Origin: Crambe crambe
Taxonomy: Eukaryota > Porifera > Demospongiae > Poecilosclerida > Crambeidae
NCBI GenBank assembly: GCA_963924555.1
Contig: OZ004589.1
Coordinates: 1,798,001 to 1,862,000 of the forward strand
Length of the DNA: 64,000 bases
Reading direction: 5' to 3'
Shown one piece after another: positions 3,247-63,676 of the stretch; position 1 is the stretch's first letter, and each line of letters opens with the position of its first letter. The notes under the pieces were generated by a model that searched no databases, was not told the origin of the DNA, and saw only the letters and a program-made list of their open reading frames with translations. The position numbers were made by a program, and so were the translations under genes.

Positions 3247-3855
3247 GACAGCCAGTAGACTCCAGCTGCCCAACTCTCGGTGTGCCACTTTGCACAGCAC
3301 AGGCCTACCCAAAGAAGGCAAGGTTTAGCCTCCGCTGTTGTTTTGTCTCTGCACAGCAGTGTCCGGCGATTGGTGGTGGTCAATTATTGAAGTTTTGCTC
3401 TACTAGGGCAATGTGCAACATTATTTGAAAGCGAGTAAGTGCTTCAACTCTTTAGAAGATTTTGCTGTTGAATTTATATGTAAAAAGATAGCTTATATGT
3501 AAAAAGATAGCTTAGAGCCTCTACAACTACTACTATAGCAATGTGCAGCATTTGACAGAAGGCTGAGTAGAACATGTTGAAGATGAGCAATCTCTCATAC
3601 TGTGAGCAATTAAAGTAGCTGATAGGCTCCAATAGACTACTTGATAATGCTGTAAGAGACAAGAGTCATGTAGCTAAGTGGTGGTTCCAACCAGGAAGCT
3701 CCATACATAGAAAGCTGTAAGCACTTAGATAAGCCAAGCGCCTACAACCCACTTAGATAAACCTAGCCCCTTCTATGACAAAAGGCTGTAGAAAACAATG
3801 ATTACAAGTACGTGGAGCAAATAATGCACACACACAGCACTACTAATTCGGGACA

Positions 3856-8611: not shown

Positions 8612-9355
8612 GTATATATTTCAAGGTATACTTTTGTACCAATAGTATCCTGGTTCTATAATTATACAACTTAGAACACTATTTTGAATACAGTAATCTG
8701 ATTTGTCACTCTGAGGTCTTCTTATTCTCATGTCACCTGATATAGACACCTCCTCTTAGTCACATGCCAGTTACCTGATTGATCAGTTAAGGGGTCTCTA
8801 AATCCCATAGAGCCCTCCCGAGCAGGTTTTCTAAACCCGGTAAAGAGGGTCATTCCAATTGGTCCTTTTCTAGCAATGCATTGCGGCAGCCACAGTTATT
8901 ATTTCTAGGTGCGCTCTGATTCATGTTCATTGCATTTAAAAACCATGGTTATTGTTTCCAAGTGCGTGTTGAGGTAAGATAAAGTGATTGGCTATAGGTT
9001 AGACACCTTGACCAACGGGATCTACAATCTATTGTAGAAACCTTTGGGCCCTTAGTAGTAACCTCGCTGCATTTGGGAACTACAGCCCAGGGCTCTCAGG
9101 TTTCTAAATAGACCGTAGATTGGTGTCGAACTATTATTACGGGCATACTCTTTTAAGGGCATATACAACATAGCAACTATTTAAAAGCTAGCTAGCTAGA
9201 TGACTGCACAGAGACTGGCCCTTTCGAGTGTAGATTTCTACTTGGGACCTGGCATGGTTTTGAAAATTAACAAGTGGTTCACACTTCATACGGTCTGCAT
9301 GATTCATTCCATGTGCTAACATATTCTAGACACTTTCTTTGATTTTGGTCACATT
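8612..9355. other. Gene-free stretch, probable intron
   Basis: No coding region, repeat pair or RNA gene was recognised. It lies between the last phase-compatible upstream exon and the complete SH3 exon of the p85-type gene. Confidence 0.4.
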
Positions 9356-12300
9356 TTGATTTATAATGGCTGTAGTTCGACAACATGGTACAGAAGATAT
9401 GAAGCCAAGTATCCCTTTGAAGCCCGTTACGAGACTGAAGTTTCCATGAAGGAAGGGGAGACTCTCTTGGTCAAGCAACTAGCTGATGGTAGCTGGCCTC
9501 AAGATGAACGTTGGTTGAACGGTCTCAATGAAGTCACAGGGAAAAATGGAGAATTTCCTGCAGGGGCTTACGTGGAGTTTATTGGTGAAGTTAAGGTGGA
9601 TCCCAAGCCCCCCTTACCATGCCCTCAGCCCCTCCCCCCACACCCTTCCCCCAGGCACTCTGATAACATATACAAAGAGAATCAGGCAGATGGAGGGATT
9701 GATCCAGGCACTCTTGATCCAGGATCCCCGCCCCCTAGTATGGACCTCTCCTCTCAACATGGACCTCTAGAGGAACAGGGTTGGTACTGGGGGAACATTT
9801 CAAGGTGGGTGTGACCACAGTATGACCAAGGTGGGTGTGGTTGATATTAGTTTAGACCTGTCTTCTCAACTAGTCTCGCGGGCCAGACCCTTTACCAACC
9901 GCGAGGGAAGGAAAGAGTCTGGTCAAATCCAATGCACGATCTTGTTGTGCACAGTCAGCAATCTTTGGAAGGAGGGGCACGACTATGACGTCATTATACA
10001 TCACAAATTTAGGAAAAATCTGCGCTCCGGATTTCTTAGCGCACATGGCTGAGCAGGAATATGATTACAGACTGGAGGCTGCTATTCAAGAGAGTGGGAG
10101 AAGGCTTGGAAACTGCTTTCAGATCAGAAAGCAGTGCCTCCAACCTACGAATATTGATTTCAGTATAAAATGCTCCCATTTTCAGTATTTTACCGTGAAT
10201 TTCAGTATTTTCAGCCATTTTATAAGTAATGTAAAATAAAATGTGTATAGTCAGTTTCTCTAAATTTCAGTATTTTTGGTCAAATTTCAGTAAAAGTTCT
10301 GATGAATCAGTATAGTTGGAGGCTCTGAGAAAGTGTCGGAAATTTTCCAGTGTAACTCCTGGAGCAGTTCTTTGGCTGATGCACACCTTGGACCATGCAG
10401 CCTTTTCTTTTTCCTATGATCACCAACGAGATCTCTGCACACAAGCACAGCTCATTAACATGACTAAACTAGAACTACTCTGTAAGTGCACGCGTGAAAA
10501 AATCTGTTTGAGACCCGTGACGTATTGTGACGTTTTGTGCATGCCCGCCACCAAATCTTTGGCAAGTTGAAACAAGATCATGTATTGGATTTGACCAGGC
10601 TCTTTCCTTCCCTTGCGGTTGGTAAAGGGTCGGGCCCGCGAGACTACTTCTCAACATGGACTTCTAGAGGAACAGGGTTGGTACTGGGGGAACATTTCAT
10701 GGTGGGTGTGACCACAGTATGACCAGGGTGGGTGTGATTGATATTAGTTTAGACCTGTCTTCTCAACATGGACCTCTTGGTACTGGGGAACATTTCAAGG
10801 TGGGTGTGACCAAAGTATGACCAGGGGTGGGTGTGGATGATATAATGATATTGAGTGTAGTATTTTACTTTGTGCCATGTAATAAAACTTGTTCTTGACC
10901 TCATCTGTCCATGCATTTATAGAGAAGATGTGGTGAATAAACTAGTTGACACTCCTGATGGGACCTTCCTGGTACGTGACTCTCAGAGGGCGGGGGAGTA
11001 CACCCTCACAGTCAGAAAAGGTGCGGCTAACAAGCTGATCCGTATCATCTATGTCGGTGGGAAGTATGGTTTCACTGAGCCCACTATGTTCCCCTCCGTA
11101 CCTGCACTGGTCCAGCACTTCAGAAAGAACCCTTTGACTAGGTATAATGCTAGACTAGACACGACTCTAGTCCAGCCCATCTCAAGATTCGATAAGGTGA
11201 GCTTGACCCTGCGTGTAAATTATTATTCATTAGAGGCTACCATAAGATATTTCCCCCAAGTTTTCTGATTACCAATATTTTTAACCATTGACCTTTGTCC
11301 TCTACATGACCTTTATCCTTTGACCCCTGCCTCCAGGTTGAGGATGAGAGTGACGATGAAGAAGAGGCGGAGGGAGGCTGGGAAGAAGACAGGGAGGCCT
11401 TGGCCAATAGCATCCTGCAAAAACTGCAGGACATGGCAGAGATATTTGAGCAAATGAATGATGACTACACTGCCATGCAAGAGAAATCAGAAGTACTTCG
11501 CAAGGTATGTAGTACGTTGCATGATTCATATGTGATTGGGAAGGGGGAGGGTTCTAGCTAGTAGATACCTTCATACATCTCAAGAGGAAGTGGCAGCTGT
11601 TGGAATTATGATTAGACCTGAGCTGATTTCTGTTGTTGTTGTTGTTATTGTTGTTGTTGTGGTTGTTGTTTCATAACTAAAACTCTTTTGTGTCTTGATA
11701 GAAAGTGGAAGAGGCAAACAAGTTGCGTTTAGCCCATGGCTTGGTGCTGGACATGGTGAGGGAGCAACTTCAAGTCTTTGACGAATCAAATAAGGCTGGA
11801 CTCTCCAAGAAGGAAAGGCAACAGTAAGAATATTAGTCCTATCGGCAATTTTCGGTACCAAGTAGAAAATAATGAAACACCCCAAGTTAACCTAGAAATA
11901 ATAGAATGAAAATGTAGTGGGAAGGGTCGTCACCAGTATTAGCACAAAGTATGCTAATTATTATTCTGGTAGCAGCCTTATATAGCAAGATTCCACCCCC
12001 CTGAAGTTGCATAGTCTCGCAGGCTGACCCTTTAACAACCCAAGGGAAGGGTGGTCAAACTCACATGAGCATCAGTAAGTATAAAGAAAAGAAAATGGTA
12101 TCACACTATAGCCTATCTATGTTCTGAGAACTAGAAGATAGCATTAGGCCCACTATGCCTTAAGGGTGGTGGCACATACGTAGCAACGCACATGCTAACG
12201 ATTAAATATTAATAACTCCAAAATTACTATAGCTATGGACTTCAAATTGCACATAGTTATAAGGTAGTATATCACTAATACACACACTATAAATGAAGAA

Positions 12301-43067: not shown

Positions 43068-45302
43068 TCAAAGAGAAGTGTTCCTACTACCCCAGTATTC
43101 CGTGATACCCCTACCCTTGGACATCAAAATGTGAGATGGATGAATGGTTGTACTTCTTTCTATAACATCGTGGTACGGATATCGTAGTGCTGTATCCAGA
43201 TCTGAAAACAATGGTCCAAGTGAATTACGCTGATAATGTGCCACCAATTTCTGTATGTGCAAATAAGAGAACGGAGTATACCCCTAGGCCCAGTAATTAT
43301 AAAATCCTTATTAGGCTATGCAACCTAGATTTGCTTTTATCGTCACAAGATTTTTCAGATTTCCATGAGGGAGGGAGGGAGGGAGGCCAACAATTATTCT
43401 AACCAAAAATAATAGCTAATTTTGATCAAGATTTATTCGATTGGAAAATATTTTGCTAAAATTGCCTCTTCAAAATTCAATATTTTGCTAACATGCATGA
43501 GGGGAGGGGAGGGGAGTATTTCATTTGCTTGGCCTTAAAATTACCTCTATTGTCACAAACTCAGGATCTTCATCATGTAAGTAGAATTTTTTTGTGTCTG
43601 CATTTTTAAAGATCCTAACATGTTTTGGCTGTTTGTTGAACCTGCAATGATAATGACTATTGATGAAAGCATAGCTAATGCATTACACTGGCAGTGCCCA
43701 GGCCATCCTTAAATTAATTTTGAAGAATAGTCATTTATCACTAACCACAAGGAAACCATCTTCCCACATCATTGTTACTATACAAGGAACCACTAAATTG
43801 AGGCTTGTGGGGGATTTTTTTTTGCATTTCATGCAGGGAGTCCCATTCCATTATAATGGCTATGTCAGTAATTAAGCCACAAAAATAATTAACAGCTGAG
43901 ATTAATTATTATACTTGAGTGCAATGGCATATTCCCCTGGGCGATCATAGCTTTCCCTGACAAGAAATACACCATCCTTCAGACGGCGAAGAGCTGCTTC
44001 TGCATCACTGCGACTCTTCTTTCCCAAGTACCAAGGAAAATTAGAGGTAGAAGATCCTGTCCCCACATCCACGTTATGAAGAGAAGAATGTACATGTATG
44101 TCTGATATCGTAATTATATATAGTTGTGCAATTAGCTTGAAATGCATATCAACATAGGGGTTCCGACAACTTAAAAGGAACTTTCCTTCATGGACAATCC
44201 CATTTCCATATAGCTTGCAATGATTATACAAACACAAGCCATATCATTATTATTACTTCCTGCTTGCTAAGGTTTCACCATGACTGTGCTGCTGAATAAC
44301 TGATTATTTGAAGGTTTGGAAACCCCCTAGCGGCTACAGCTAGATCCACCCTCACATTCTCATGGTAGCTAAGTAGCAGAATCTGCTGGCCAACTGACTT
44401 ACTGGACACTTGTCTGCTCTTAGCAGTTTCTAGTCTTTGTCTTTTTACAGAGAACTTAAGGTCATAAAAATCCATCATCTCTGGGATGGTTTTGAATACT
44501 TCCTCTTTCTTCTGATAGTGTAAATGGTATCCCCCTGATGTGAAGTCAATGACAACATGAGATATTAATCCCTTAATTTTCATCGATAGGACAAGGTCTT
44601 TGCCTGATTTTCGCACCAAGAAGCAGCTTTTCTCCGTTTCTTGGCTCAGCAATTCCATGGCGTATTCTTCGGTGGTCTTTCCGTGATACCAGTCATGTTT
44701 GTCCAGGTCTGCAAAGCTACTTTCAGAATCAACACCATCCTGGACATCTTCTATTTCTAAAAATCAAAAATAATGCAGTAGCTAGCTAGCTACCATGGCA
44801 GGTAGTCAGAAATTATTACATAGTTAGCTAGGGACTGATTTGGCATGGAGATAGTCCAATCATTTTAGCTAATACAGTAACACTTACCAGCATATTCATG
44901 CTCTAATGATTTACAAGCTACTCCCAAGTGTACAAGATCATTGCTCAAGTCAATAGCATTGAAACGATGATAAGAAACCAGTTCATTCAGATCACTGAAG
45001 CGTTTCTCTGATGATTGGACATGGTGTTCCAGTTGGTACCAGCCCGGTCCACGTTCTATTTTGATGTGTTTGATCTGTTTATCATGGTATCTCAGAGACA
45101 GGATAAGAGATCCTGTACTTTCTCGAACAAGGAAGCAGTTACTAGAGCCACAGTCTCTCAACGCCTCTTCAGCCTGAGCTTTAGTGAGCTCTCCACGATA
45201 CCAGTCTTTATCAGAGTCCGCTTGGGATCCTTGAACATAATCTGCCATAATTCTAGTTTCTGAGCATGCGCATTTCTTTATAATGGTGGAAGACACGCCC
45301 AC
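43068..45302 (-). CDS. Triple-SH2-domain adaptor protein (third SH2 Vav-like)
   Basis: Five exons on the minus strand: 45302-44888, 44756-44403, 44056-43915, 43641-43545, 43250-43068 (396 residues, or 378 from the ATG at 45248, which starts MADYVQGSQ). SH2-1: DWYRGELTKAQAEEALRD, CFLVREST, HIKIERGPGWYQL. SH2-2: DWYHGKTTEEYAMELL, CFLVRKSG. SH2-3: FPWYLGKKSRSDAEAALRR, VFLVRESY, GEYAIALK, FNKQPKHVRIFK, then KLVAHYQRNSLGPLF and LDTALRYPY; this last part follows the Vav SH2 pattern. All three FLVR arginines are present, so each could bind phosphotyrosine. No SH3, kinase or phosphatase domain was seen. It is divergent from the cadherin gene. Orthology is unknown. Confidence 0.85.
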
Positions 45303-45388
45303 CGAAAAGTAGGGCGTGGCTGATTTGAAAAGTGGGTGTAGCTGCTCGTTGGAGGCTAATTTTTTTCGCCTTCAGGCAAATCAGGAAG
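45249..45388. promoter_or_regulatory. Shared divergent promoter region
   Basis: Only 86-140 bp separate the start codons of the minus-strand SH2 gene and the plus-strand cadherin gene. The stretch contains TGAGCATGCGCA at 45261-45272, which resembles the NRF1 site core, but no clear TATA box. Promoter function is inferred from position. Confidence 0.45.
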
Positions 45389-48300
45389 ATGTCATCCAGA
45401 ACAAAGTCTTTGACGTTTATTGTGATCTGTACCTTGCTGAGAGTTCACCAGCTAACAGCGCAAGGTAAAACTATGCCACCAGGCTCTAAACTAACTAGCT
45501 ACGTAGCAGATGAATAGGCCGATACTGGCTAGCAAGCTCCTTCTTACAAATAGGCAGGAAGTGTAACTTAGGTATTAGTCTTTAAGTTAGGAAGCCAAAA
45601 AGCTTAGTTACATTAAGGCAGGGAGGCAAGGCTAAGGAATCTCCATGGACATAGTAAATAGCTAGCAAGTTAGCTAGTCTAACTCTCCAGGAGAAATGAT
45701 CCACAACTTATATGAAAGAGTAGGGGGCACCTGCCTCTGCCTCAATAGTAGCTAGTTATCCTAGGGAGCATAGGCAATAAGATAGCTCTACATGCAGGAT
45801 CAATTCTAGTGATAATGACATTGGTGACCGGCTCTGGGAAAACCCTCCGTCCGGTGCAAAAATCAATTATCAGATATGAGCACGTTTAGTTGGCAGTGCC
45901 AAAATTTGGCAAAAATTTTTTTTAAGCATAAATGACAAATATGATCCTTGAACAAAGCACAGATGAAGTTTGGAGCTCAGACTACAAGTACAAAGGCTTC
46001 AAATGAAGCGCTAAAGTTAGCTAGTCAGCCATTGAAGCTTCGTGCACGGAGATTCTAGTCAGGCTGAAATTCATTGAACTTTAGGCAGGCTTTCCAGCTT
46101 ATGCGCTGGGAAATATGAACTTACTAAGCTATCTGCGCTACCTTCGGTACCTTGCTTCTCTTCTCGGAGCTTCGGTTGGACCTTTCTCGAGCCAAAAGGC
46201 AAGAAACTAGCTTCTTACTAACTACAGTTCGAAACCCCACCCACTGTCAATTTACTAGTCCACGGGCATGTCCGGAAATAATGTTCACGTTGCTTAGTCA
46301 GCTTTTCTCGAAAAAACAATAACGCTAATGGACGCTACCTCGATCTTTCTAAGAGCTGTTCCTCAGGCGTCATAAAAGCTATAGCTTTGAAATTTGCGCA
46401 ATAAAGAGCCAAAGGGCCATAGATAATAAATTTTACCATAACAAAAAATTTTTAATTTTCACCCGACGGAGGGTTTTCCCAGAGCCGGTCACATTAATTT
46501 AATTTGTATGATTTATGCTTTTATAGGGTTGGCACCTTACGAGGAAGGCTCTGCCGATGCACAAAGCAGTGGTAACTCATCAATGTTCCCAAGCTCTGGC
46601 TCAGGATCAGAAATTCAGCAGCCAGATCTCACATGCTCAGCAGGACAAAATCGATCTTTAACAGTAGCAATTCTCTCTTCACTTGAGAGTCTATTTCAGA
46701 GATTTCAATGCACGAGCAACTCAAATGTACCACTTTTGTACATGCTCACATTTCCTGACAGCAGGGAAGGAACATTTCATGAAAGACAGGCACTAAATTT
46801 AACCATACTGGACGTTTTCAACACAGCAGGAGACACTTCTGTTTCTGTCAGAGTGTGTCGCGAAGGAGCTTCAGAAATGTGTGATCAAAGTTCTAGGATC
46901 GAAGATCTCGGAAGTATAACCGTATCTGTAAACCCACTCAGCAGTGAGCGATTGTTTCCCTATGGAGATCTTATGGATGATCAATCATTTCGTGGCGTTT
47001 TGGATGGAGCTAGGGTTATTTATCCCTCAGAAAGTATTCCTTTTTTCTCAAATTACTACCGAAGGCTTTATGTAAGAAACACTATTGTATTAATGGTGGC
47101 TTGAGTGTTAATTCTTAGAGATGCCAGTGAAAGGGGGATATGTCTGGTGAGATATTAGGCTATGCCATTCTAGAGGATTTTCAGTTTCATAATTATTAAT
47201 TATTTGTTTTGATAAGTCAGCTGTAGTACACCTGGGCATTCTGTTACTTACTCTTTAATTTTAATAGGTGAGCAGCAATGGGTTAGTTTCACTCGGCCAG
47301 CAATATCTTTCCTGGTGGCCAGTTCCATTCCCATACGGCAGGTCTCGAGTTCCAATCATCGCTCCATTCTGGGCTGACTTTGACTTCAGGAATAACATTC
47401 CAAGCAGCAGAATCTATTATCACGTCTATGAGAGGGGCAGAAATCCTTCTCTATCGGATCTCCTGATTCTTGATGAATTCCAGACAAGGCTTGGGGCTTA
47501 TAACGTGACATTCGATCCCAATTTTCAAGCAGAATGGATGGCAGTGATAACATGGAATGATGCAGTACCATACTACTGGAGCTACAACACAAATGAGGTA
47601 ACTCTTTCATTATGATTTTATTGGCTATACAGAGCTATCTGTAATTATATATTCCACCACCAGAAGATAATGATTTTAGAGAGGTTGAAAGGCATCTCAA
47701 AGCTTATGTACTGCATGTGTGAATACAGCAATACTTTTCTATTCTTCCAGAAAAATATTACTTTACTGAATTTTGATTTTGCTCCATATCTATAATACAG
47801 AGAGCTACATTCCAACTAGTGCTGGTGTCCGACTTCGTACAAACCCATGCCTTATACCTCTACCAAGACTCCACCCTACCCAGCTGGCAACATACTGTCA
47901 TTGGTTACGACACAAGGGACTTTGTTAACTACAACAATGTTGAATTTAACTCACAAGCAGAATTTCTGCAAGTCCATAACATGGTAGGTAACACGGGAAG
48001 ACCTGGAGAGTGGTTCTTCGACCTGACATCCCAGGAAGACAGAGGTAATCCCGAACAGAGATGCACCCTCTGGGCTAGGAGACAACAGGGACTGACTCAG
48101 AACATTAATCCACACTCCCTCAGAATAAATGCTTGTCCCTGCACACGTAGACAAGCACAACGAGACTGGAATTTTTGGTTTGCGTACTTCTGGGGACTTT
48201 CGTCTGCTCCCAATTGTGCAACAGTCTTGTTCTCACAAAGCCAGGGGACCATTGAGTGTTGCTACGACAACTCAGGGGCACTGATCGTTGGACCTCGCCA

Positions 48301-49252
48301 CGGAGGAAGCTTCAAGATGTACAACCCTCTTTTCTTTTATCAGCAGAACTTCCTGGAGGATTTGACACCGTATCAGGACTGCTGCGTGATGTCCAATAGG
48401 TGCAGAACTTACTACATGTATAGGCCACCAGATAACTGCTCACGCTATGTGCCTCCCGTTACTCGTAAGTTATCATTTACTATAATTATAAAATCACGTA
48501 TCCCTAAGAGCTAAGAGTGAAAGTATCTGAAGTCTATAATTATAAGCTATGACTAAGACCTCCCACTTATGCAATGTGTGAATCTTTCATCTCTTACTTG
48601 TGCTTGCAGAATTCACATTCGGTGACCCCCACTTCAGAACTGTTGACAGTGCAAATTTCACATTCAATGGCATTGGTGAATACGTTCTCATCCACTCACC
48701 TTCCGTCAAAGTTCAAGCACGACTACAGAAATTTAGCAGCAACGTCACAGGCACTGTGATATCTGCCATAGCAGTCAAGCAGGGAGATGTCCACACTATT
48801 CAAGTTCAAAACGAGAACGAAGAGATCGCAGTCTATATAGGAGGAGTGAAACATGAGATAAACGTGGGTGAGTCACCTCTCGTGGTTACAAGTTCAGGAG
48901 TCATTTCAAATGACCTGTCCGGAGGGATTTCCATAGAAGATGTAGGAGCTGGTGGTGATGCAATGAACATGGCAAACATGGAAAATCAAGTGTTCGTGAG
49001 ACGTGATAGTGAGGATGGTTTGGTCATCAGCACTGGAGGAGGTGCTTCTGTAAGCATCTCCCTCCAGACTAATTTCCTTGCAATTGTAGTCGAACTGTCG
49101 GAGACCTTTGAAGACATGACGAGTGGTTTGCTGGGTGTGTTTAATGGCAATCCCAATGATGACTTCCGCAACAGAGATGGTGACATTCTCAATCTATCAA
49201 CTGAAGAGGAGATTTATCATCAGTTTGGGCTAGCCTGTAAGTAGATATGTTT

Positions 49253-49297
<45 letters not shown>

Positions 49298-52200
49298 AAC
49301 AAAACAAAAACAAAAACACTAAAATTTCAGTCATAATACATTTTTTTTACAAAGTAAAATTTTCAATCATGCAGGGCATCTTCTTCAGAATGAAAGTATC
49401 TTCAACTACTCAATAGGCAGTACCTCCTACTCCGAGGTCAATGAAGGCTTCATGACCTATCTCCCAGTATTCACCGAAGATTTGATTGATTCTGTTCCTC
49501 AAGAGGTGATTGATTCCTGTCAGAGTAACTTGGATTGTGTGTACGACGCTACTGTGACTGGAAATATAGAAGTTGGAATCTCCACTTACAACATCTCTCT
49601 GACCAATGATGACATAACACAGACATTGCGTAAGTAATATATCCATTCCCTTAGCTCTGAGATCTTTTTTCCAATTGAGCACATGAAATAATTATGGCAC
49701 ACTGAAGAGCACCATGAAGAAGTATAGCAGGTGTTTGAAATCAGTAGAAATGTCATATCAACTGTGATTAGTTATAGCTAATCGGTGCTTTGCTGTTGAG
49801 AGTACAGCAAATGCATAAAACCTCTGTATTACATGTCATTCTGTAGTGATGAAATTATCATTTTCTGAAGCACTACCCATGCAAGCTTTCCACTAACATT
49901 ATTGAGTATTAGGACTTAGGCTATATAGCCATAAGCATGTATGTGCCCTCTCCAGTATATTCACGACTTGTTATTGTCTCAAAGAACTAATTATGAATAA
50001 CTCTTTGTCACCTGACAACTAAATACCTACAGTCATCACACGGGACTCAGATATCTTTGAATACCTTTACAACAGATGGTTCTCTAACTCAGTGCAATTA
50101 AGGCTAGGCTTAGAAATGTATGCGCAGCGCCGCATACGTAATGCTATGAATATCATTAAATGACGTATTTTATTAAATCGTGCTGTGAAGCTCTAGCCGG
50201 CCAGCATGGCTTAATATTAGAGGGCGGTGGCCATGGCAGTACGAGACCACGCCCCTGCATCGTTCGTGATGTCAAAACGGTGGATTGCATGCTAATGTCG
50301 GCAAGTAAGGGCTACGATGCCGTCCAACATTCTTCCCGCTATCGTGGACCTTCAGCAAGGGTAAGAAGTAGTAGATAAATAGGCCAAAAGCAATTCTGTC
50401 GGAGGGATTCTCGAAATAATGAGCCATACTGACGTTACTCGCAGAGTTGTATGCCGTCAAGCACCCTAGTTCGAGGTTTTCTGCGGCTCCTGCCTTCTCT
50501 GTTCAAGCTATTCACTATCCCTCCAGTGTAAATTTCAAGTATCATGCCAGGATTCTGCCCTCCAACTGTTAGCTTCATAGAACTAGTGCAACAATGTTGG
50601 CACTCTAGATTTATATGTTTAAGGTGCGGTTGTTTACAGATCAATCCACCCTCTATAATGTTTGCATTCCTGTGGTTATCTATATATATTGAAAGTGAAT
50701 GCTTTAACACTGTAGTAGAGCCTCACGAACCTACATGAAACATGGTACAAAGTGCAGTGGTACCTGGCCTTAATTGCACTGAGAATGCACCGCTAATACA
50801 TACGTAACTAAACACCATTATTCATTGAAGACAATATTGATGTCGATGTGGGACCTCTATCATACTGATTAACCCTTAACCCACAAAGTTCATGCAGTCT
50901 TGTTGCAACTAATTCTCTGAAAACATGTATCCAGTGGTCGTGGTTGTGGTCTTCAATAGCACAATTTGCCAATTGGCTAAGGGGATTCTCTAATAACTCA
51001 TACATTATTATTCATAAAGACCTCGAGTAAATTAATGGAATGCACCCATTTACTCCACAATGTATTTCCTATAATTAATTGCAGAAAATACTCCCCCTTC
51101 CTTGTCTGGAGAGTTCTTGCTCTTTGCCACCTCTGATACACCGCTCGAATCCACATATATGGCCAGTGACGCTGATCCTGGAGACACTATCGACACTCTC
51201 GCTCTAAAGGTCTGATCAGAATTATGTATAATCTAAAAGAATACAGAGCATTTTAGTTTCCTGGAAATTCCTCTCACTGATGAAAATTAAGTCTTGAAAA
51301 TAAGGGCAACTCTCAGGAGACATGACATTGACTGCCTTATTGATCTCTTCAAAATTGCTAATTCAATGAGAAATCAATGACCCAGTAACTGTATGTACAA
51401 CCCTATATCTTGTCATGAGCTTCTTACATATCACAGGAACCAATTCCTGATGGATTCGAGTACATGACCATGAATGGGAACACGCTGGTAGTGATGTGGT
51501 CAAGTCCAAATATCACCCTTCCTACATCATCCCTTGTATTGTTTGCCAATGACAGCAATGGAGCACCGTCCATCAGAAGCATCTCCATCGTCCTATGTGC
51601 TTGTGCCAATGGAGGAAGCTGCATAATTAACGAGGACAATTTAGGGTCGGCAGAGTTCAACCATAACAACCATTACAAGTGGCCATGTGATTGTCCTGAG
51701 TTTTTCGGTGGGGATTCATGTGAAGTTGATATGAAGGGGTGTGGAGAATTCAGCGTGTGTCCGGATTACTCTGTCTGTGCTAATAACAGCATGGTACCTT
51801 CTGGGTACACCTGCAATAACTGCTCAGAGGGATACGAGTTAGTAGAATCTGGTGGAAAATGCACTGGTACGTGAACTAGTTTGTTCTTAGTAACTGCATG
51901 TTCTAAACATGATGGTCAGCAGGGCTACAATCATTAGCTTATTGTGGCAAGGGGTGCTAGGAATTGGTTGCATGATCATGCCTATGGCATAATTATATGT
52001 TCCTTTTATTCTCAGAAACAGTGTTTTATAACTTTCTAGTAATCATAGAAGATTAGGGACCACATACTGTGTATGTTTCAATGTGAAGCTTGTACATGTA
52101 AGTGAGAGCATCCTAGCTGCTGGAGGGTATTGGTAGTTCCACGGAACGGACACTAAGACTTATGAGCTCTATTTGGAAGATGTATTATACTGCCATAATC

Positions 52201-55200
52201 ATATCCTCCAACTTTGAGCCAGCAGATTCGGAAATATTAATTTGGAGCATTGCAAGTATCCACCTGTAACTTAAACACTTTTTGTATGTAGATATCGATG
52301 AGTGCATGACTATGGCGCAAAATTGTGAACACAATTGTAACAATACCGAAGGGAATTACACCTGCAGCTGCAATGAAGGGTACAGGCTTGGAGGTGATCA
52401 AAGATCTTGCAAAGGTAAATATAATAGCTGAAGGTCTTAAGTCTTATGGCATTATATGAAAGACGGAAAAGGGAAGAGCTTAACTCCACCCATATCGAAA
52501 GATATACTTATGCTTAACATTATCATCATTTAGACATTAATGAGTGTGAAGAAGGATCATCTGGATGCTCTCAACGCTGTATCAATACTGACGGTGGATT
52601 CACGTGTGAATGTGAAAGTGGGTATAACCGTGATCCAGATGATATGACAATTTGCATTATAGGTAAGAATATTTATGCAGCTACGTACATAAAAGTATAG
52701 ATTGTGCATGAGCTTCATCCTTTGTAAACATTACATGTATCAATGGTTCCCTCTTGACAGCATCCTGTGGTACTGGAGCTGATTGTGGTGATGAATTCAT
52801 GTGTGCAATGGTGGGAAGTTCTTTGGAATGCTTGTGTCCTCCCGGCATGGAATGTATCGGCACTTGCAGTGTTACAGACCAAGATGACTTGTTAGGTACA
52901 CGGAAATGCCAGAGTAAGTGCTATTCAATCACTTTCATGATTATTATGGAATTGTAGAATTTGAATGTACCAAATATAAAATCGAAATCCACAAAACTTG
53001 TACACAATAATAATTATTGTTTATTTATTTTTACTCACTTTTTTTTCCATTTAGCATGTCCTAATGGCATGTATGGACTTCGTTGTGCACAGACGTGTGG
53101 GTGTGGTGACAATGGTAGGTGTGACAGTGTGACTGGATGTGTGTGTGAACCTGGATGGATGGGAGTGAACTGCACTATCGGTAAGGGAATCACAATAACA
53201 CAGTTCTAAAAGTTCTACCATATGCAGTATGGTGCATGGGACTGATATAGAAGGGGAATCAAGGGCCTCCTTCTATGAACATAGATAGTGCTTCGTCAGT
53301 ACCTAGGGACACACCCCTCCCCTTCATCGTTGCCATAGGATAGGCTACATTATCAGAATTGGACCCCTCCCTTGAATCTACCCCCTGACATGTATCATGC
53401 CTATCACATGCATGTCAGATACATTAATGCTCTCTCTAATAACAGTTATTCTAGTTAGGAAATAAAGATTTAAACTATCTTCCCATCTTTTTGAATTTAA
53501 GTAGCTATTAAGCAATGACTATTTCTTTACTCAGAAATAAACAATAATACGCCAGTCTTTCCTGATACCACTCCTTCCATGATCCAAGTGTATTGGAACC
53601 AAACGATGGGCACAGAAGTATTGAGAGTCATGGCCAGTGATGAAGATGTTGGTCCCAATGCAAGAGCGGTGAGGTACGGCCTAACTACATCGCGTTACCC
53701 ATTACCTCAAGAGATATCTGATGGTAGAACTGTATTTAGTATCAATGAAAGGTCTGGTGAGATCACTCTTCAGTCAGACTTAATTTCACTAGCTGGTATG
53801 TTTTCTGGATTCGTACTGACTATAACAGCGGAAGATAGAGGCATGCCTCCTATGTCAACTCAACACGTACTTACAATTGAACCTATTCCAGTACCAAATT
53901 TCCAACCTCACAGGCGTATGATACCTATCGATGAAGAATCGCCCCTGGGAACATCAATATCTACACTGATGTGCAATGAAACTGGACCCCCAAGTGGTTC
54001 AATAGAGTTGACTCTAAGCGGTGTGGGTTCAGAGAATTTCAGAATTGATAGAGCCTCTTCCTTAGTTGTTTTCAGGCGACTTGATTATGAATCACTACAA
54101 GAAGAAGAAAGGAGCTTCAACCTTGTGGCATATTGCAGAAATCACTTTAATCTCTCTGATAACATCATGATACGTGTGACAGTACGAAACATCGATGACA
54201 ACCCCTTCCTCTTTAATCTTCCTCATTATTCGGTAACAGTGCAGGAAAATTCCCCTCCTGGTACACATGTCACTACAGTCAGTGCTTCCGACAGGGATCT
54301 TCCAGAAGTAAGTATCACGTACAGCTTTCGGTCCACTGGAGAGACAAGGGACTTCAGAATCCTCCCGAACAATGGCACAATCCTATTAGAGAGTTCCCCA
54401 GATCGAGAGGAGAGAGCTCAGTATTCATTGTCAGTAGAAGCGGTTTATTTAGTTTCGAATGGCGTACAAGTAAGGACCACTACGCTGGTCACTGTTACCA
54501 TTGCAGATGTAAATGATGAACATCCGAGGTTCGACCCTCCCTTTTACATTGTCCGAAACATTACTACAATGAATGAGGTTGGGGAATCAGTTATCACTGT
54601 AACTGCTATCGATTCCGATGTGGGAGTGAATGGAGAAGTGAGTTATCTCTTAGAGGGAGATAGCCAAGAATTTGTGATCAACTCAACGACGGGCGAAGTC
54701 TCAATTGCAGCATCTCTCTTTCCCGAACTTTACTCACTTACAGTGAACGCAACGGATGATGGACAAGAACCACTGTCTTCCACCACTTCCATACTCATCT
54801 ACGTTCTCCCTTCACTCAGTCACATTGAACTTATGTTTAGGGATGACCCCATTGTACTATCCGAAAACACACCAGTGGGTTACCAAATCGGCCAAGCTGT
54901 TGCAGACGTCATTGATAACAGCAACACGACACTCAGCAATAGATCTGACTTAATATTAACATATGAAATTGTGAATGGAACAGATCGGGATCGCTTCCTG
55001 ATCAGCAGGACCATGGGTGGGATATTTTTACTAGGAATCTTGGACTACGATGCTTTGGCTAGAGAATACGACCTTATCATCAGTGCTACGTTAGTGGGAT
55101 TACAACTCACAGACGAAGCCGTTTTGAGAATCATGATCACAAATGTAGACGATAACCCACCATTTTTCAGTCCTAGTTTCTATGCTATATCTGTAGAGGA

Positions 55201-58200
55201 ATTCACTCTACCCAACACACTAATCCTCACTGTTAGTGCTACCGACCCTGACGGACTTGAGACCATCGAATATTCTCTGTCAGGCCCAGACAGCACACCT
55301 TTCAGTATCAATAATTCAACAGGCAGCATCTTTGCAGCTGTCGAGTTAGAAACGGCTCAAGATTATCGATTCTTCGCAGTTGCTAGTGACGGAGGAACTC
55401 AGATCTCGAGTGCTGTCGTGTATATATCAGTGACACGATCCGAATCTGTTGCACCATCTTTCACCAAAACCGAATTCCTCTTTGATCTCTCTGAAAGTGC
55501 CACTCCTGGGACATTTATCGGAATGGTTACTGCAGTTACCAGAGGCAATCGGTCTTCAACGGAATTCAGCCACTTGGGATTTCGAATAATCTTTCCTGAT
55601 CCCATCAGTTTCAATAACATTAGCTTAATTCCAACGAATACCTCGCAAGACCTCTTCCACATTGACCCCAGGTCTGGGAACATCAGTACTCAGTCATTTT
55701 TTGAGTTTGATTCTGAAAGCAGACAAATTTTCGTCTTCTATGTAGAAATTTTCAATGTGGATGATGGAACAGGTTATGAAAATACAACAGTTCAAGTCCG
55801 GCTTCAGGATGAAAACGATAACTCTCCTATCTTTGACCAATCTCTCTATACGCGTGTCATAAATACGTCTTTAGCAAGAAACTCAATCGTTGCTGTCTTA
55901 AATGCCTCTGATAGAGACTCAGGAAGCAACAGTAGAATCACCTACGAGATTGAGCGTCAGGATTTGCTCAAGGGTTTTGTCATAGGCCAAAGAACTGGAG
56001 AAATTTCAACTTCCAATTCCACATTAATACCTGGAGACTATTACCTCGATGTTATAGGCACTGATGGAGGAAACCCACCAAGAAGCTCACAAGCTAGAAT
56101 CTATATAGCTGTCATTCCCATCACACCAGAAGATATTGAGTTCACTCGAGAGATATATCACTTCACTACTGTTGAAGATGCTCCACCCAATACATTATTG
56201 GGAGCCATCAGAGCTGTGCAGATCAACTCTTCTCTATCCTCATCAGATATTACCTACTCGGTAATAAATGTGACCAATTGCTTCAGTATTGACTCACAAA
56301 GTGGTGAGATTAGGCTCTCCTGTACGATTTTGGACAGAGATACTATTGAAAGGTACGAATTTCCGGTCAAGGCTGAAGTCAATGGAGACGTTGAAGTTTA
56401 TGGGACAGTGAGAGTCACTCTTGAAGACATCAACGATAATGCACCTGATTTTTCACTTGATGTGTATACCAGTGTCATTGATGATCGCCATGGTAATTCT
56501 ACTCCTATACTTCAAGTTGTGGCTGTTGATGCAGATCAGGGGATAAATGGAACAGTATCTTACGAAATTGTCCCTCAAGATAACAACATTTTCAGAGTCA
56601 ACAGCACATCCGGTGAAGTCTTTCTCATCAATAACACAGTTCAAATTGGAGACTATAGACTGAGTGTACAAGCCACAGATATGGGAATTCCAGAGAGATT
56701 GAGTTCTTCTGCTCTTGTGCTGATATGCATCACCCGGGCCCATCCACAAACCTTGCAGTTTGCTACCCGTGATTTCAACATTACTGAAAACTCACCCCCA
56801 GGAACGGAGGTGGGTATCGTCACCCTGGCTACTAATGGAGGCAACATCATCAACACTGGCAATTTCCCAAATAACTTGCAATTCTCTATAACTGGAGGCG
56901 ATTCTCCAGACTTGTTTGAAATTGACAGAAATACTGGAAGGATAACCACTAGCTCCCGAAACATTAACAGAGAAGAGAGTACCTTCCACATCATACGAGT
57001 CCTTGCAAATTTCACACAATTTAATGATATCCAAATCCAGCATGTCGAATCCGATATCCGTGTAGCAGTTCTGGATGTAAATGATAATGCACCAGCGTTT
57101 CAGTTGAGGATCTATTCCACTGTCATTGACGACAACAGGGTCTTAGACAAAGTTATCTTCAACATTACAGCTAGTGATACTGATAGTCTGTCAAATGCTG
57201 AGCTGTCGTTTAGCATCAATCCACAGCCAGCATCATTCTTTGGAGTTCGAGTGACAAATGCAGATCCACCAAATACTTATGGTGAGATCTTTGTCAATGA
57301 TACTCTCACACCAGGAAATTATCGCTTTACCCTCACTGCTTCTGACAGAGGGACTCCTCCACTGAGTAGCAATGTGACTGTTGATATCATTGTGGAACAC
57401 GCCATCCCTGAAATGATCAACTTCACTTCTTCTAATTACTCCTTCTTCTTAAATGAAGAGACTCCTGATAGAACGGTAGTGGGTACTGTGTCTGTTCTTC
57501 CTGAAACGCCTGCTCTGGATCCTCTTATCTTTGCGATAGAAGGTGGTGATGGAGAGGAGTACTTCATCATCGATGCTTCAAGTGGAGTAATCATGAAAAA
57601 CCATCGAAGAATTGACCGAGAAAACATCACAGTACTCTCTCTGATGGTCAGAGCTTACTTACCTGAGCAGAATCCACCCCTGGAGGCTAGCACAGTGGTC
57701 ACAGTGACAATACAGGACATTAATGATAACCGTCCAAGATTTACAGAGGCAGTCTACCCCAGCATCGGTGTTGATACAGATATGATACAAGCCAATCATT
57801 CTCTGGTTACAGTAATGGCAACTGATGATGATATTGGAAGTAATGCTGAAGTGGACTTTGCTATCCACTCCATTATGTTCATGGGTTCATCGTACGGTGG
57901 ACACATATTCACCATAAACCAAGACGGACAGCTGTTCCTGTCACCCACACTTGAAACTGGAACGTATATTATCAGCATCAGTGGATCGGACAGAGGCAAT
58001 CCTGGACGAACAAGCTTCACGTCTGTGGTGGTGCAGATTCAGAGACCAGCTCCAGACAGCATCACTTTCACCAATCCAAGTGGGTACTCCTTCACACTGA
58101 CAGAGAACAACAGCTCGGTCACATTTGCACGTGTTGCTCTGGCTTCCATCCCGAACTATCTCCGCCAATTCATCAGGTACTCTGGAACAAGTGCTAATTT

Positions 58201-61200
58201 TTCGGTTTCCGACATGTCCGGCAATATCACAGCTCTTGGGACATTTGACTATGAAATGGTGAAGAATTTTTCATTCACGGTGACTGCCATGCTCAACGAC
58301 TCCACAAGATTGCCGCCTCTCAATCTCGAGGCAACAGTCAATGTCACTATTCTGATCATTGACGTGAATGACAATACTCCATTTTTCCTCAATTTTCCCT
58401 CTGAAATAACCCAATATGAAAATCGTACCACTCGGGAAGTGGTGTATGACCTCAATGCTAATGATAGTGATTCCAGCTCCAATTCTCAGTTGGTATATGA
58501 GATACAAAACACTGACATAGACTGGTTGATACGCATTAATTCAGCAAATGGTGAACTCACAACATCAGCGAGTTTGGACCGAGAGAACTCAATGCAGGCA
58601 CGAACACACATGATTGTGATAAGAGTATGTGACATGGGAACGCCACGCAGGTGTGTGCACAATTCAACTCCGTTTAGACTACTTGATATCAATGATAACA
58701 GACCTCGCTTAATATCGGGAGTGAGCTACAATGTCGCTGAAAGGAGACCACCAGGAAGTCGAGTCTTCTCCTTTCAAGGCATGGATCCTGATTCAGGAGC
58801 TAATGGAACTATCAGATACTTCATAACCTCATCAAATGTCCCGTTTTTATGTGATAGTGTTACAGGACAAGTCACCTTGACGGAAGAACTCGATTACGAA
58901 ATGAGGACTTTTTATATCATCATTGTACAACTGAATGACACGGGGACCCCTCAATTGACAACACATTACAACAATGTGAGGATTAATGTGGTGAATAAAC
59001 CTGATAATACACCAGAGTTTGTGCATAATGTTGGTGAAACGATGTACCGTAATAACACCGACCCTACAGTGTTAAGAGGAGATGTCTTGTTCCAAGTGAT
59101 GGCCAGAGATGCAGACATTCCTTCGAGTAACGATTCACTGAGATATGAGATCTTAAGTGTAGTAGCAGTGGGTAATAATAATACCGTACCTCAGCTGATG
59201 ATGGAAGCAACTACAGGACGAATCGTAAGTTCAGTCAACCAGGTCTTCATCCCTGAGGCAACCTTCACCCTCTCAGTTTTAGTATATGATCAGAGTGAGT
59301 TTAATCTCACAGACATGACGACCTTGTTGATCACAGTCATCCCCGATCCTTTAGCTTTCACTCAAACACAATATACTGTCTCCGTAAGGGAAGACTCTGG
59401 TCCAAGAGACTTGATTACTCTTCCTATCAGGCCTCTATCAGTGTCCTCAAATATAACTTACAGTATCGAAATTGTCAGACCAACATTGCCCATGGCTAGA
59501 TTTTCAGAAAGTGGGAATGGATTTCATAATACCACTATAAGGTATGTATCAGGACTGGACAGAGAGGTACAAGACGAGTATGTAATCAGAGTGACAGCTA
59601 CACGGAGTGTGAGGGATCGAACACAGACCACTCTTCTTGTGAGAGTCATTGATGCGAATGATAATAATCCTGTGATCATAGATAGAGTGGGAACAATATC
59701 CATCTCTGAAAACGTTCCTTCTCAGACGGTGATTACTAGAGTCAATGCAACCGATCGAGACATAGGTGATAATGCACTGCTGGTGTATCGCTTGAGTGAG
59801 AATGGTCTGCCTTTCTCCATGAACTCATCTACAGGAGTCATTAGAGCAGTGGGGAACCTGGATTACGAAACCACACCTTCTTACAACATAACAGTTACAG
59901 TCAGAGATTCAGGTAGTCCTCCGAGGGTAGTAAGCAGAGTCTACACAATAAATGTGGAAAATCTTAATGATAATTTCCCCGAGTTTTCTGCATTGGCCTA
60001 TTTTGGTGAAGTTTATGCGCGTGCTACTATCAATGAGTTTATCAGACACACAGAAGTGAGAGTAACTGATCGTGATGATGTCCGAAATCAGCAGATCCTC
60101 TCTTTCAGGATCTATTCTGAGACACGAAGTGACTTCCGTTTCCGTGTTGACCCAAGACCACCTTATCTGATTCGAGTGGAAGCCATTCCCGATGAAGCAG
60201 ATGCGAGTTCTCAACTGCTGGAGCTGAGGCTTGAAGTGACTGATGAAGGAGGAAAAGCTGCAACTGTGCCACTGTACATCTCAGTCTTCACTTCAAATAA
60301 CATAGCATCATACGTCTTTCATGGAGTGAGTGTCGGTCAGTTGCTATCCTGTGAGACTCCATCCACTTCTATATGCAACTTTCTGCGAGCTATTGGATCA
60401 CTGACCAGAATGGCCCTACAAGCAAGTGATACTGTCACATTTTATAACTACACAGTCAACGAATCACCAAGTAATCCTAATAGGTAAGTAAGTTTTATAT
60501 TATAGTGAATGCCAAGGAATGTACCATAGTTTAATCCAACCAAAACTGTATTATACATAAAGTGGTTGGAAAAAAAAAGTTCTTTTAGGTTAAAAACTGG
60601 GAAGTAATGTGGAACCTCCGAATAAAGGACACCTCTCTATAAAAGACACTTGTTGGTGTCCCACCATAGTACTTTGTGTATTAAATGACCTCTGAATAAA
60701 GGACACCCTTTCTATAGAGGACAATTTCAGTGGCCCCAACTTGTCCGTTATTTGAAGGTTCCGCTGCATAACTAGTTATCCCATTTCTATACCTTTCAAA
60801 CTACATAGGACCGGTGAATGTAGCTACAGAATATAATAATGAGTATGACATTGTACCATTAACTTTCTACTATATTATAGGATCATGGTAGAAGTATTCG
60901 GTTGGTATGGTAGCTCTGACTATCGTGAAAACAGGGGAGAACTCAACAGTCCAAATAGAATCCAGCCAATCAACTACGTCCCTTACAATGAAGAACTCTT
61001 CCAAGGAGTAGCCGAGGACAACTCCCTTGCATTTTTTGGATTTGCCATTGAGCTTGAAGAGAAGGTCACCACCCCTCCTCCTACTACGATGATTGTAACT
61101 GCAGCAGTGCCACTCACGACTATCATTGGAGTGGCTGTGGCAGTCGTGATTGTTGCACTGGTTGTCATTCTGGTCATTGTGCTTGTCTGCGTCTTTGGAA

Positions 61201-63676
61201 GGAAGAGAGACCAGCCAAAGAAAAAGAAGTAAGAATTTTAATGAATTTGATAGCTATTAGTCACCAGCAGTTATTTTAGTGGCAGCTGCTAGCTATCATA
61301 GTTAGCTATTGTAGCTAAAATTTCTAATCAAATGACTGGAAAATATTATTGTCATTCCCATAATGGATCTCATTAAACTGTAACACTACAGGATTTTCGG
61401 ACTGTAGATTCATGCACATGCACAATGGTAGCTGTATTGAAGTGTGTAGGAGTGTAGGCATAATGCTCTGTTCTGCAAGTAACTCATACAAAGATGCTAG
61501 GCTCATTCCTTATTGAATCATTCTCTTGGTTCTCAATAGAAACAGAAGACCAAGTGATCCCTATGACAGGAGCATCAACCGCCTTCGTAATCTAAACCGC
61601 TCAAAGAAGGGGTCATTTGACGAGACTCCCCTCCACTCAACAGGACAGAGTGACCTCGCTTATGAGACCATGTACGATGACGATGAAATTGTGGATACTG
61701 CACAGACTATGCCCTGGTTTGACCCCAAATATCTGGCTTCGGGAAAAGACGATGTAAGTTCCTTTGTCGTGCCTGTAGTAATCACTTTAAGGTCACTATA
61801 GAAGTCTCAGTAGTTTGAACAATATGGAATTACCTGCTATTTGAAATAGTACCACTTTACCTTACTTTATACTAGTCTCGCGCGCCAGACCTTTCTGCGG
61901 ACGGAAGGGGAGGGGGAAAGGAGGGAAAGGTCTGGTAACTATTGACAGGTTTTCGTGGACCTCCAGAATGTTGTAGTCACATGATAATCAGATGATTACA
62001 CGAGAGCTAGCGCGCGCTCAGAGAGATTGCAATCACTTGATCATGAGCGGACTGACTACTACAACTATTGAACTGGAGGACGTCCTTCTCAATTTGTCAA
62101 ACACAGAAAGAGATTTACCACTGCCAGTAGGAAGGCTCACGAAAGTATCTCGACCAGAGAGAAAATGTTTCATGATCTCTTCTTGCTTTTCACGAAGACT
62201 AGAATAGCCCATTTCTTCTTATCCTGGCATTTTAAATATTTAAATCTCTTTCTCCTAACTGCGATTGATAGTTTGCCACGTGAACTTTAGACAATCCATC
62301 TGATAATCTCGTGACAGCAACACCCATTTTTTTAAAATCTGAAATCTGATTGGTTCCACCAAGATTCTGGCGGAGGTCCATGAAAACCTGTCAATAGTTA
62401 CCAGACCTTTCCCTCCCCTTCCCCCTCCCCTTCTGTCTGCAGAAAGGTCTGGCGCGCGAGACTAACTTTATACATGGTAGCTGTAGCCAAGTAGCTATGT
62501 ATATTATTTCCATCAAAGAAGAGAAGAGTGTTGATAAAGAGATATTTTCATAATGGCTAGCTATGAAACCTGCCTTGACATGAACCTGATTCATCCTGAT
62601 AACGGTGTTCCTTATGGAGGACAGGCAAGATTAGCTTAATAACTCATCTTGTTTCTTCTTCTCCAGTATGACGGAGACACGGAACACACACTTGATCGAC
62701 CAGCAGGTAATAGGCAGGGAGTTCCCTTCAACCTCCGTGCCACTGTAGACGGAGATGCTCGCAGGGGAAGGAGACACTCGTCCGATGAGTCAGCAGTTGG
62801 AGGTCAGTCTGTGACGGAGTTGGATCACTCGGATTACCTTCAAGGCTACCAAAGCTCCACCCCTATGCAACCAGGTATAGCTTATAGTTCAATATAAGAC
62901 CAAAGCATTGTAATCAGAACTACATGAAATTAGCTATATCTAGCCATTATGAGGTCTTCACTAGCACACTCAAATTCTGTAGTGTCTAGTCACTGTTACA
63001 GTAATGAATGTCATTCCAGTATCAATGCTATAGCTAGTAAGCTAGAAGTCTATCTACATTCACCATGTCCCTTCACTATAACTGCTATAACTTTCTCAAT
63101 TCTTAACCAAATTTCTAGTTTAATGCATCAACAGAGAACTGATTAACCACTCTCTCTCTGCTGGTGTCTGAAATTTGAAATTTGGTTAATAGCTAGCTGA
63201 TGAGTTCGAGTAAGGGGCAAGGTGAATGCAAATCGACTTTAGTTAGGTTAATAGTAGTCTTGGCAATGTTCTCATAGCAAATTTTGCTCTCTTCTTCAGG
63301 TCAGAGAATGGGAGAGTTTGACATGTTTGCATCTCCTCGTGATCCTGACAAGCCCTTCAGACCATCTCTTGAGCATGCTCAGAACGAATGGGAACAACAC
63401 CAAAAACAGCTTCAGAGTCAAAGGTCCCAGCAACAAAGCCAGCAGAGGGTGACTACAAATCAGCCCAACCAACGACCTCCAGTTAACCAGCAACAGATGC
63501 CCAACCAAAGGGTTGCTAGCCAGCAGTTGCCAGGTCAACGGCTCCAACAGCAGAACCAGAGGGTTGCTAATGGTAACCAGCAACAGCGAATGCCAAATCT
63601 TAGGTCTGCCAATCAGCAGCGAATGCCCAATCAGAGGATAGCAAACTTAAGAGCCAAATATGGTCAAAATCAATAA
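45389..63676 (+). CDS. Giant NIDO-AMOP-VWD-EGF-cadherin transmembrane protein
   Basis: Seventeen exons: 45389-45464, 46527-47071, 47268-47597, 47801-48464, 48610-49236, 49375-49629, 51085-51209, 51437-51866, 52292-52414, 52534-52662, 52761-52913, 53055-53180, 53535-60483, 60881-61228, 61540-61753, 62667-62874, 63300-63676 (3,892 residues). Order: signal peptide; NIDO ([23 protein letters not shown]); AMOP ([31 protein letters not shown]); VWD opening with [12 protein letters not shown]4/SUSD2-like region; CNNCSEGYE; two calcium-type EGFs (DIDEC, DINEC); further Cys-rich/EGF units; about 21 cadherin repeats in one 6.95-kb exon; TM ([20 protein letters not shown]); cytoplasmic tail of about 277 residues, basic then acidic (YDDDEIVDT), ending Q/N-rich. 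Adhesion at the cell surface is inferred. No beta-catenin-binding motif was recognised. Confidence 0.92.
45824..46492. mobile_element. GTGACCGGCTCTGGG TIR element in intron 1
   Basis: GTGACCGGCTCTGGGAAAAC at the left end and its reverse complement GTTTTCCCAGAGCCGGTCAC at the right, with CCCTCCGTC/GACGGAGGG next inward. It is about 669 bp, with no transposase and no clean target duplication. It lies in the first intron of the cadherin gene. Confidence 0.85.
49254..49318. repeat. (AAC)n microsatellite
   Basis: About 15 AAC units followed by AAT/AAAAC variants, in the intron after the VWD exon of the cadherin gene. Confidence 0.95.
50088..50783. mobile_element. CTCAGTGCAATTAAGG TIR element in a cadherin-gene intron
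   Basis: Left CTCAGTGCAATTAAGGCTAGG and right CCTGGCCTTAATTGCACTGAG form the ends. Inside, near 50296-50358, is an exon-like stretch reading [20 protein letters not shown] and ending before AAG/GGTAAG, which may be captured host sequence or chance. The rest of intron 49630-51084 shows nothing. Confidence 0.65.
53181..53534. other. Intron before the giant cadherin exon
   Basis: No repeat or RNA gene was recognised; it ends in TTTCTTTACTCAG at the acceptor. Confidence 0.5.
60605..60768. mobile_element. GTGGAACCTCC-type MITE in intron
   Basis: Begins GTGGAACCTCCGAATAAAGG and ends GAAGGTTCCGCTG, with repeated AATAAAGGACACC units. It is related to 40054-40196 and lies in the intron after the giant exon. 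Confidence 0.7.
61873..62464. mobile_element. TAGTCTCGCG-type TIR element with perfect 9-bp target duplication
   Basis: Begins TAGTCTCGCGCGCCAGACC and ends GGTCTGGCGCGCGAGACTA; the TIRs extend about 90 bp and include CTATTGACAGGTTTTC and its complement. The flanks are exact 9-bp repeats ACTTTATAC (61864-61872 and 62465-62473). It is 592 bp with no transposase. It lies in the intron between the first two cytoplasmic-tail exons. Confidence 0.93.

Follow-up and report, generated by a model that had tools for sequence, protein, structure and literature searches.

In a 64,000-nucleotide stretch of the genome of the sponge Crambe crambe (assembly GCA_963924555.1, contig OZ004589.1, positions 1,798,001 to 1,862,000 of the forward strand; hereafter the window), one gene at 45389-63676 encodes a MUC4-type head and a stalk of 21 cadherin repeats (EC) followed by a hydrophobic, transmembrane-like (TM-like) segment. 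This combination is kept in a second, strongly diverged copy in the same genome. From the N- to the C-terminus the protein carries NIDO, AMOP-like, VWD, and MUC4-type C8-3 domains, EGF units, 21 EC, a membrane-adjacent region, TM, and a tail. It is fairly probable, judging from the sequence, that the product is a giant type I membrane adhesion tether with a possibly cleaved MUC4-type head borne on the 21-EC stalk.

Copies of the gene were sought in the window's own genome (143 Mb, 119 contigs). With exon 4 as a query, 32 matches were detected at E <= 0.1. Three of them were full length with E < 1e-60, namely, the window gene itself (contig C12), C13:2200546, and C5:4930106; the copies are named below by contig, C13 and C5. 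The other 29 matches were weak or partial (best E 3e-11), and 24 of these fell on C8 and C1, where matches to NIDO and VWD are concentrated. From approximately amino acid (aa) 70 through EC20, the C13 copy and the window protein are colinear, with identities of 92/178 in NIDO, 115/202 in VWD, and 991/2,144 in aa 1195-3440. The proportion of synonymous differences (pS) between the two was 0.75-0.86, that is, at or near saturation, and that of nonsynonymous differences was 0.31-0.42 in the head, the EGF part, and the array; we infer that head and stalk have long been held together under purifying selection.

Intron positions were compared using spliced alignment that was blind to those of the window gene. 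All 11 window introns within aa 207-1195 recur at the identical residue and phase in both C13 and C5. The phase-1 intron at the junction of head and stalk has a length of 354 bp in the window, 72 bp in C13, and 62 bp in C5, and neither of the two latter introns offers enough room for one gene to end and another to begin. The sequence-only reading of the window had proposed a single receptor coupling a mucin-like head to a cadherin stalk; that both parts belong to one gene is well supported by the colinear copies and the shared introns. The opposite case, two genes meeting at 53535, is contradicted by the short junction introns and by the 11 introns shared with the copies.

C5 and C13 are close to each other: in three stretches, synonymous divergence (dS) was 0.14-0.21 and nonsynonymous divergence (dN) 0.035-0.06. 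In C5 (C5:4925001-4945000), the stalk matches only at approximately aa 1195-1341 and 2842-3335, and the model of this copy contains one stop and two 44-bp false introns. These signs mark the C5 copy as a relative of C13 that is recent, shortened, and damaged in frame; it may be decaying. Exons proposed by the spliced aligner for C13 beyond aa 3348 contained three stops and were dropped; the open frame of the giant exon was used instead.

The exon encoding NIDO and AMOP was also compared with two collections that hold no animal genomes, and, as expected, none of the 97 pattern matches in genome_contigs or the 58 in viral_contigs was confirmed. A sequence search of PDB with the profile of this exon gave no match.

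Gene model and domain content

The exons were delimited by hand and checked by a script. The 17 exons with matching phases and 3,893 codons that had been read from the letters were borne out: 16 of 16 introns are GT-AG, the phases chain, and the coding sequence of 11,679 nt comprises 3,893 codons including the stop, giving 3,892 aa. The stop-free frame that contains exon 13 has 2,322 codons, versus a longest frame of 201 in 200 order-1 Markov copies of the region. The signal peptide, TM, and membrane-adjacent region were assigned by inspection alone. The features are as follows.

45389..45464, + strand: exon 1, signal-peptide-like start (ATG, hydrophobic core, donor GTAAAA; by inspection)
46527..47071, + strand: exon 2, N-terminal region, aa 26-207, homologous in C13 and C5
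47063..48025, + strand: NIDO, aa 205-392 (Pfam PF06119, 81.8 bits, E 8e-23), spanning the end of exon 2, exon 3 (47268-47597), and the start of exon 4
47801..48464, + strand: exon 4, second half of NIDO and AMOP-like domain (aa 402-521, ~48053-48412)
48610..49236, + strand: exon 5, VWD, aa 541-729 (Pfam PF00094, E 7.3e-12)
48621-48632, + strand: GDPH motif, aa 543-546, at the start of VWD
49375..49629, + strand: exon 6, MUC4-type C8-3, aa 784-822 (Pfam PF23263, E 2.6e-8)
51085-51209 and 51437-51866, + strand: exons 7 and 8, uncharacterised region and first EGF-like units (by eye)
52292-52414 and 52534-52662, + strand: exons 9 and 10, two calcium-binding EGF units (Pfam EGF_CA/cEGF), class 1-1 exons
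52761-52913 and 53055-53180, + strand: exons 11 and 12, cysteine-rich/EGF-like (by eye), directly ahead of the cadherin array
53181..53534, + strand: junction intron between head and stalk, phase 1, 354 bp, with one AATAAA at 53461
53535..60483, + strand: exon 13, 6,949 bp, all 21 EC (aa 1197-3447, 53540-60292) and the start of the membrane-adjacent region
54494..58702, + strand: EC4-EC16, duplicated two-repeat unit in which calcium-type and calcium-free linkers alternate
60881..61228, + strand: exon 14, rest of the membrane-adjacent region (to ~61061), TM (~61122-61196), and start of the tail
61540..61753, + strand: exon 15, cytoplasmic tail, YETM motif at aa 3668
62667..62874, + strand: exon 16, cytoplasmic tail
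63300..63676, + strand: exon 17, Gln/Asn-rich end of the tail, stop TAA

Exon 1 is the least supported exon, and its intron position is not common to the C13 or C5 models. The two-exon layout of exons 7 and 8 is found in both copies. Within the intron between exons 15 and 16, an inverted repeat was noted at 61873-61964 and 62372-62464; its arms form two overlapping pairs, one of 58 nt with 90% complementarity and one of 56 nt with 89%, and it is perhaps a small transposable element.

As for the head, Pfam matches confirmed the NIDO, VWD, and EGF domains named in the sequence-only reading (EGF_CA in the head, E 1.4e-12), and AMOP proved present in a divergent form. In a scan of the 1,200-aa head, AMOP was not reported at E <= 1. 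Exon 4 of the window member scanned alone gave AMOP PF03782 (E 3.5e-4, 21.2 bits versus a cut-off of 25, profile positions 2-143), and the domain was matched in exon 4 of all three copies, with a best E of 3.4e-5. The candidate conclusion that AMOP is absent was rejected on the scan of exon 4 alone; on these matches, the AMOP domain is real but divergent. Pfam gave no sushi or TIG match at E <= 1 in the window protein, and C8-3 is present, which makes the head MUC4-like rather than SUSD2/Mesh-like. Of the earlier designation "MUC4/SUSD2-like", the first half thus stands on the C8-3 match and the second does not.

Other MUC4-type traits are the order NIDO-AMOP-VWD, the position of C8-3 behind VWD, and GDPH at the start of VWD. 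A Ser/Thr/Pro-rich tandem-repeat mucin domain was not found: the fraction of these three residues is 0.20-0.25 by region, and the search for tandem repeats gave no coding one in the gene, its two finds, an AAC run (49253-49318) and a 23-bp repeat, both being intronic. A plain head type with Mesh/MUC4-like layout also exists in this genome according to its frames, since at C8:8806001-8826000 NIDO, TIG, AMOP, VWD, C8-3, EGF, and a TM-like segment follow one another in this order. The stalk gives no match at E <= 1 either there or at the VWD-bearing head locus C10:8050001-8060000.

Within VWD domains, GDPH is known as a site of cleavage at Asp-Pro. For FCGBP, it is reported that cleavage at GDPH is autocatalytic and raises protease resistance, and replacement of Asp by Ala or Asn blocks it (PMC10880436). 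Cleavage of SUSD2 depends on GDPH and on disulfides between the fragments and is required for surface localisation, and the paper favours a serine protease (PMC6696261). By analogy, the bond between D544 and P545 is the predicted cleavage site of the window protein.

As for the stalk, Pfam reported cadherin in 20 stretches of the array (E 8.2e-188). Twenty-one EC were delimited by motif, in agreement with the earlier estimate of about 21, and a hidden Markov model built from those EC also returned 21, a count that is not independent of the first. In EC4-EC16, the mean EC-EC score was 99 at lag 2 versus 40 at lag 1. This part is accordingly built from a duplicated EC pair, so that calcium-type and calcium-free linkers alternate. 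The same alternation is found in C13, and DxNDN-type motifs are retained in the calcium-type linkers of both proteins. The stalk is predicted from this pattern to be jointed. It has 59 N-glycosylation sequons in aa 1195-3570.

The suggestion that alternating linkers are unique to this gene was rejected. Seven control arrays were taken from the top of a list in which 150 of 618 candidates had been scored; one of them alternates, five do not, and the seventh, with only 7 EC detected, says little. Other cadherin arrays among the 150 scored candidates likewise lie in giant open frames of up to at least 9,990 codons. At C19:3826001-3836000, a giant cadherin gene with a 7,262-codon frame has EC of two alternating types and largely alternating linkers. 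For structure modeling, an alignment of three-EC modules was dropped, as overlapping modules had been aligned to their own copies.

Between EC21 and TM lies a non-EC region of approximately 124 aa that is split by an intron; besides the window itself, it has one weak match in the genome (E 0.014). In aa 3339-3892, Pfam finds no EGF or LamG match at E <= 1, and the protein has no TMEM132 match at the same threshold. No Cadherin_C (catenin-binding) match was detected in the tail at E <= 1 using Pfam, which a very divergent one could escape. Indeed, most sponge tails of the catenin-binding type escape Pfam (PMC5968619). The tail contains one Yxx-hydrophobic motif, YETM. The copies, the GDPH motif, the linker alternation, and the Pfam negatives for EGF/LamG below the array and for a catenin-binding tail all go beyond the sequence-only reading.

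Proposed architecture and alternative explanations

Given the putative signal peptide and TM, the head would sit at the outermost end of a long stalk. As in SUSD2 and FCGBP, VWD would be cut at GD|PH while the NIDO-AMOP fragment remained bound, and the tip would then be a two-piece, protease-hardened binding module. The stalk would consist of calcium-stiffened EC pairs linked by calcium-free hinges and could fold up or stretch between cells or out through the glycocalyx or matrix. The tip, the distal EC, or both may bind a partner, by which the cell would be tethered to a neighbour or to the matrix or cell coat. The tail, without a recognisable catenin-binding domain, would be linked to the cell in some other way. 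Exons 9-12 belong to class 1-1 and the cadherin array starts behind a phase-1 intron; phase-1 exon shuffling may have set the single-exon array behind the EGF exons. It is quite possible, though put forward tentatively, that the gene represents an undescribed adhesion-receptor family with a self-cleaving MUC4-type tip on a jointed stalk of calcium-stiffened pairs and hinges, which arose by such shuffling. If so, calcium and force would determine how far this chain-like tether reaches, and a single molecule from close to the root of the animals would combine the mucin and the cadherin adhesion systems.

Several observations weigh against the tether proposal or parts of it. The C13 array ends behind EC20 and is followed by a Ser/Thr/Pro-rich stem, TM, and the start of a basic tail, all in the giant exon; the stem and TM stand where the window protein has EC21 and its membrane-adjacent region, so that conservation does not extend to the membrane end. 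The C13 model begins behind the first exon and includes only a minor part of the tail. The cleavage motif is not kept in every copy, C13 having GEPH where the window and C5 have GDPH, and the AMOP match of the window member lies under the curated Pfam cut-off. A permutation test of the linker alternation (658 and 106 of 100,000) was made after the pattern had been noticed and used hand-called linkers with EC17/18 (PDN) taken as calcium-type, which the regular expression does not call so. One of seven other cadherin arrays of the genome, that on C19, alternates as well. The EC models were obtained from six-row alignments with predicted TM-scores (pTM) of 0.56 and 0.65, and AlphaFold2 places no calcium, so that the bent EC geometry is weak evidence.

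The junction of head and stalk bears on two alternatives. Two adjacent genes, one for a secreted or membrane MUC4-like protein and the other for a cadherin, could have been wrongly joined in the model: AATAAA occurs in the junction intron, read-through of exon 12 stops after 9 residues so that a head-only transcript could end there, and the stalkless MUC4-like sequence on C8 shows that such heads exist separately. We consider this very improbable, because the same order and the identical phase-1 position are found in two copies with junction introns of 72 and 62 bp, both sides of the junction are conserved at the protein level, and the cadherin exon starts at a splice acceptor, where no signal-peptide-like start was seen by eye. 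The intronic AATAAA and the nearby in-frame stop are also what would be expected if a soluble head-only isoform, ending in the intron between exons 12 and 13, were produced beside the full receptor and were the main active product. This is unlikely, given that a single AATAAA is no surprise in 354 bp of A+T-rich DNA and that the junction introns of the copies leave little room for a poly(A) site.

Other alternatives accept one gene and concern its role. That the protein is a barrier or anti-adhesive, mucin-like component of the cell coat, in which the EC array without an adhesive partner is a mere spacer lifting the MUC4 head, is a minority possibility of some weight: the head is of MUC4 type, aa 1195-3570 contain 59 N-glycosylation sequons, and alternate linkers without calcium ligands would make a flexible spacer. 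However, no Ser/Thr/Pro tandem-repeat mucin domain is found, and a pure spacer has no obvious need for the DxNDN-type motifs that are kept in the other linkers of both copies. That the protein is a Mesh/SUSD2-like component of junctions, sealing or spacing epithelial cells across a gap defined by the stalk, is rather doubtful. Insect Mesh and its rootworm orthologue have the layout NIDO-TIG-AMOP-VWD-sushi-TM and act at septate junctions, and expressed Mesh induces cell-cell adhesion (PMC4964579); yet the window protein has neither sushi nor TIG at E <= 1, and frames of the NIDO-TIG-AMOP type exist separately in the genome. The tether with a MUC4-type head on a cadherin stalk is the interpretation that we prefer.

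Neighbouring loci in the window

An SH2-domain gene (44275-45371, - strand) lies head to head with the receptor gene; its two frames have Pfam E of 5e-11 and 9e-13, and approximately 140 bp separate its ATG (45248, counted by hand) from the receptor ATG (45389). In those stretches around C13 and C5 that were read, one match to the SH2 frames was obtained, at chance level (E 0.36). At 20203-41775 (+ strand), similar frames are repeated at 22544, 28970, 35784, and 41305, as well as at 20203 and 28338; by eye they suggest a tandem cluster of Ig/FN3-like membrane receptors, and the one frame scanned gave weak fn3 (E 0.006). At 9320-11268 (+ strand), a frame with a sub-threshold SH3-like domain is followed by a frame that is SH2-like by eye. 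Long overlapping frames at 144-1341 (+ and - strands) represent a degenerate tandem repeat, by eye a minisatellite and not a gene.

Comparison with known systems

MUC4 shares with the window protein the domains NIDO, AMOP, VWD, and C8-3 in order, then EGF and TM, and GDPH at the start of VWD. The window protein differs in that no Ser/Thr/Pro tandem-repeat domain was found and that 21 EC stand between the EGF units and the membrane. The head of SUSD2 has AMOP and VWD, and SUSD2 is not known to carry cadherin repeats. It also shares GDPH, where it is cleaved into disulfide-joined fragments (PMC6696261). The window protein gave no sushi or TIG match. Mesh shares the AMOP and VWD head, has sushi/TIG, and as described in the available text carries no cadherin repeats (PMC4964579). 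Mucin4-like proteins of corals combine NIDO, AMOP, VWD, and EGF with TSP1 as an extra domain (PMC4890752), and those of anemones combine NIDO, AMOP, and VWD with SEA, CUB, ZP, or FN3 (PMC9080433); the word "cadherin" is absent from the latter paper. Extra domains on a MUC4 head are thus already known; cadherin repeats are not among them in the portions of the literature examined.

Tandem EC with calcium motifs place the protein in the cadherin superfamily. Neither the catenin-binding tail of classical cadherins nor the membrane-proximal EGF/LamG of FAT was found using Pfam. FAT/Dachsous and other giant cadherins share a long EC array with calcium-free linkers able to bend, and Drosophila N-cadherin bends at such linkers (PMC8325961). 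The window protein differs from FAT/Dachsous in its MUC4-type N-terminal head, in the lack of EGF/LamG matches below the array, and in the strict alternation in EC4-EC16. At the position of the MAD of protocadherin-15 and cadherin-23, it has the intron-split region of approximately 124 aa with one weak match elsewhere in the genome. Lefftyrin, coherin, and hedgling likewise join cadherin arrays to other domains in early-branching lineages and carry a TMEM132-type domain set (PMC6030884); the window protein, without a TMEM132 match, is set apart from them by this description. The choanocyte cadherins of Ephydatia are non-classical and were proposed to be microvillar linkers, and for these candidates the legend key names cad, TM, DUF, TSPN, and LamG3, with no NIDO, AMOP, or VWD (PMC4942974).

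In PMC7853314, the domains that a figure legend lists for several proteins include AMOP, NIDO, vWD, and cadherin repeats. Among the matches listed, which cover open-access literature only and are not proof of absence, NIDO/AMOP/VWD and cadherin repeats in one protein are undescribed in the text available. Surface proteins of the mucin type and those of the cadherin type are commonly regarded as two distinct toolkits. The gene is a chimera of two adhesion families, which may be moderately surprising for cadherin specialists; fused, duplicated, and apparently under purifying selection, it points to domain shuffling that produced a composite adhesion receptor. The alternating-linker stalk offers a clear, testable prediction on mechanics, and in a sponge the gene provides a concrete system for asking how cells are kept together in early-branching animals by means other than classical cadherins alone.
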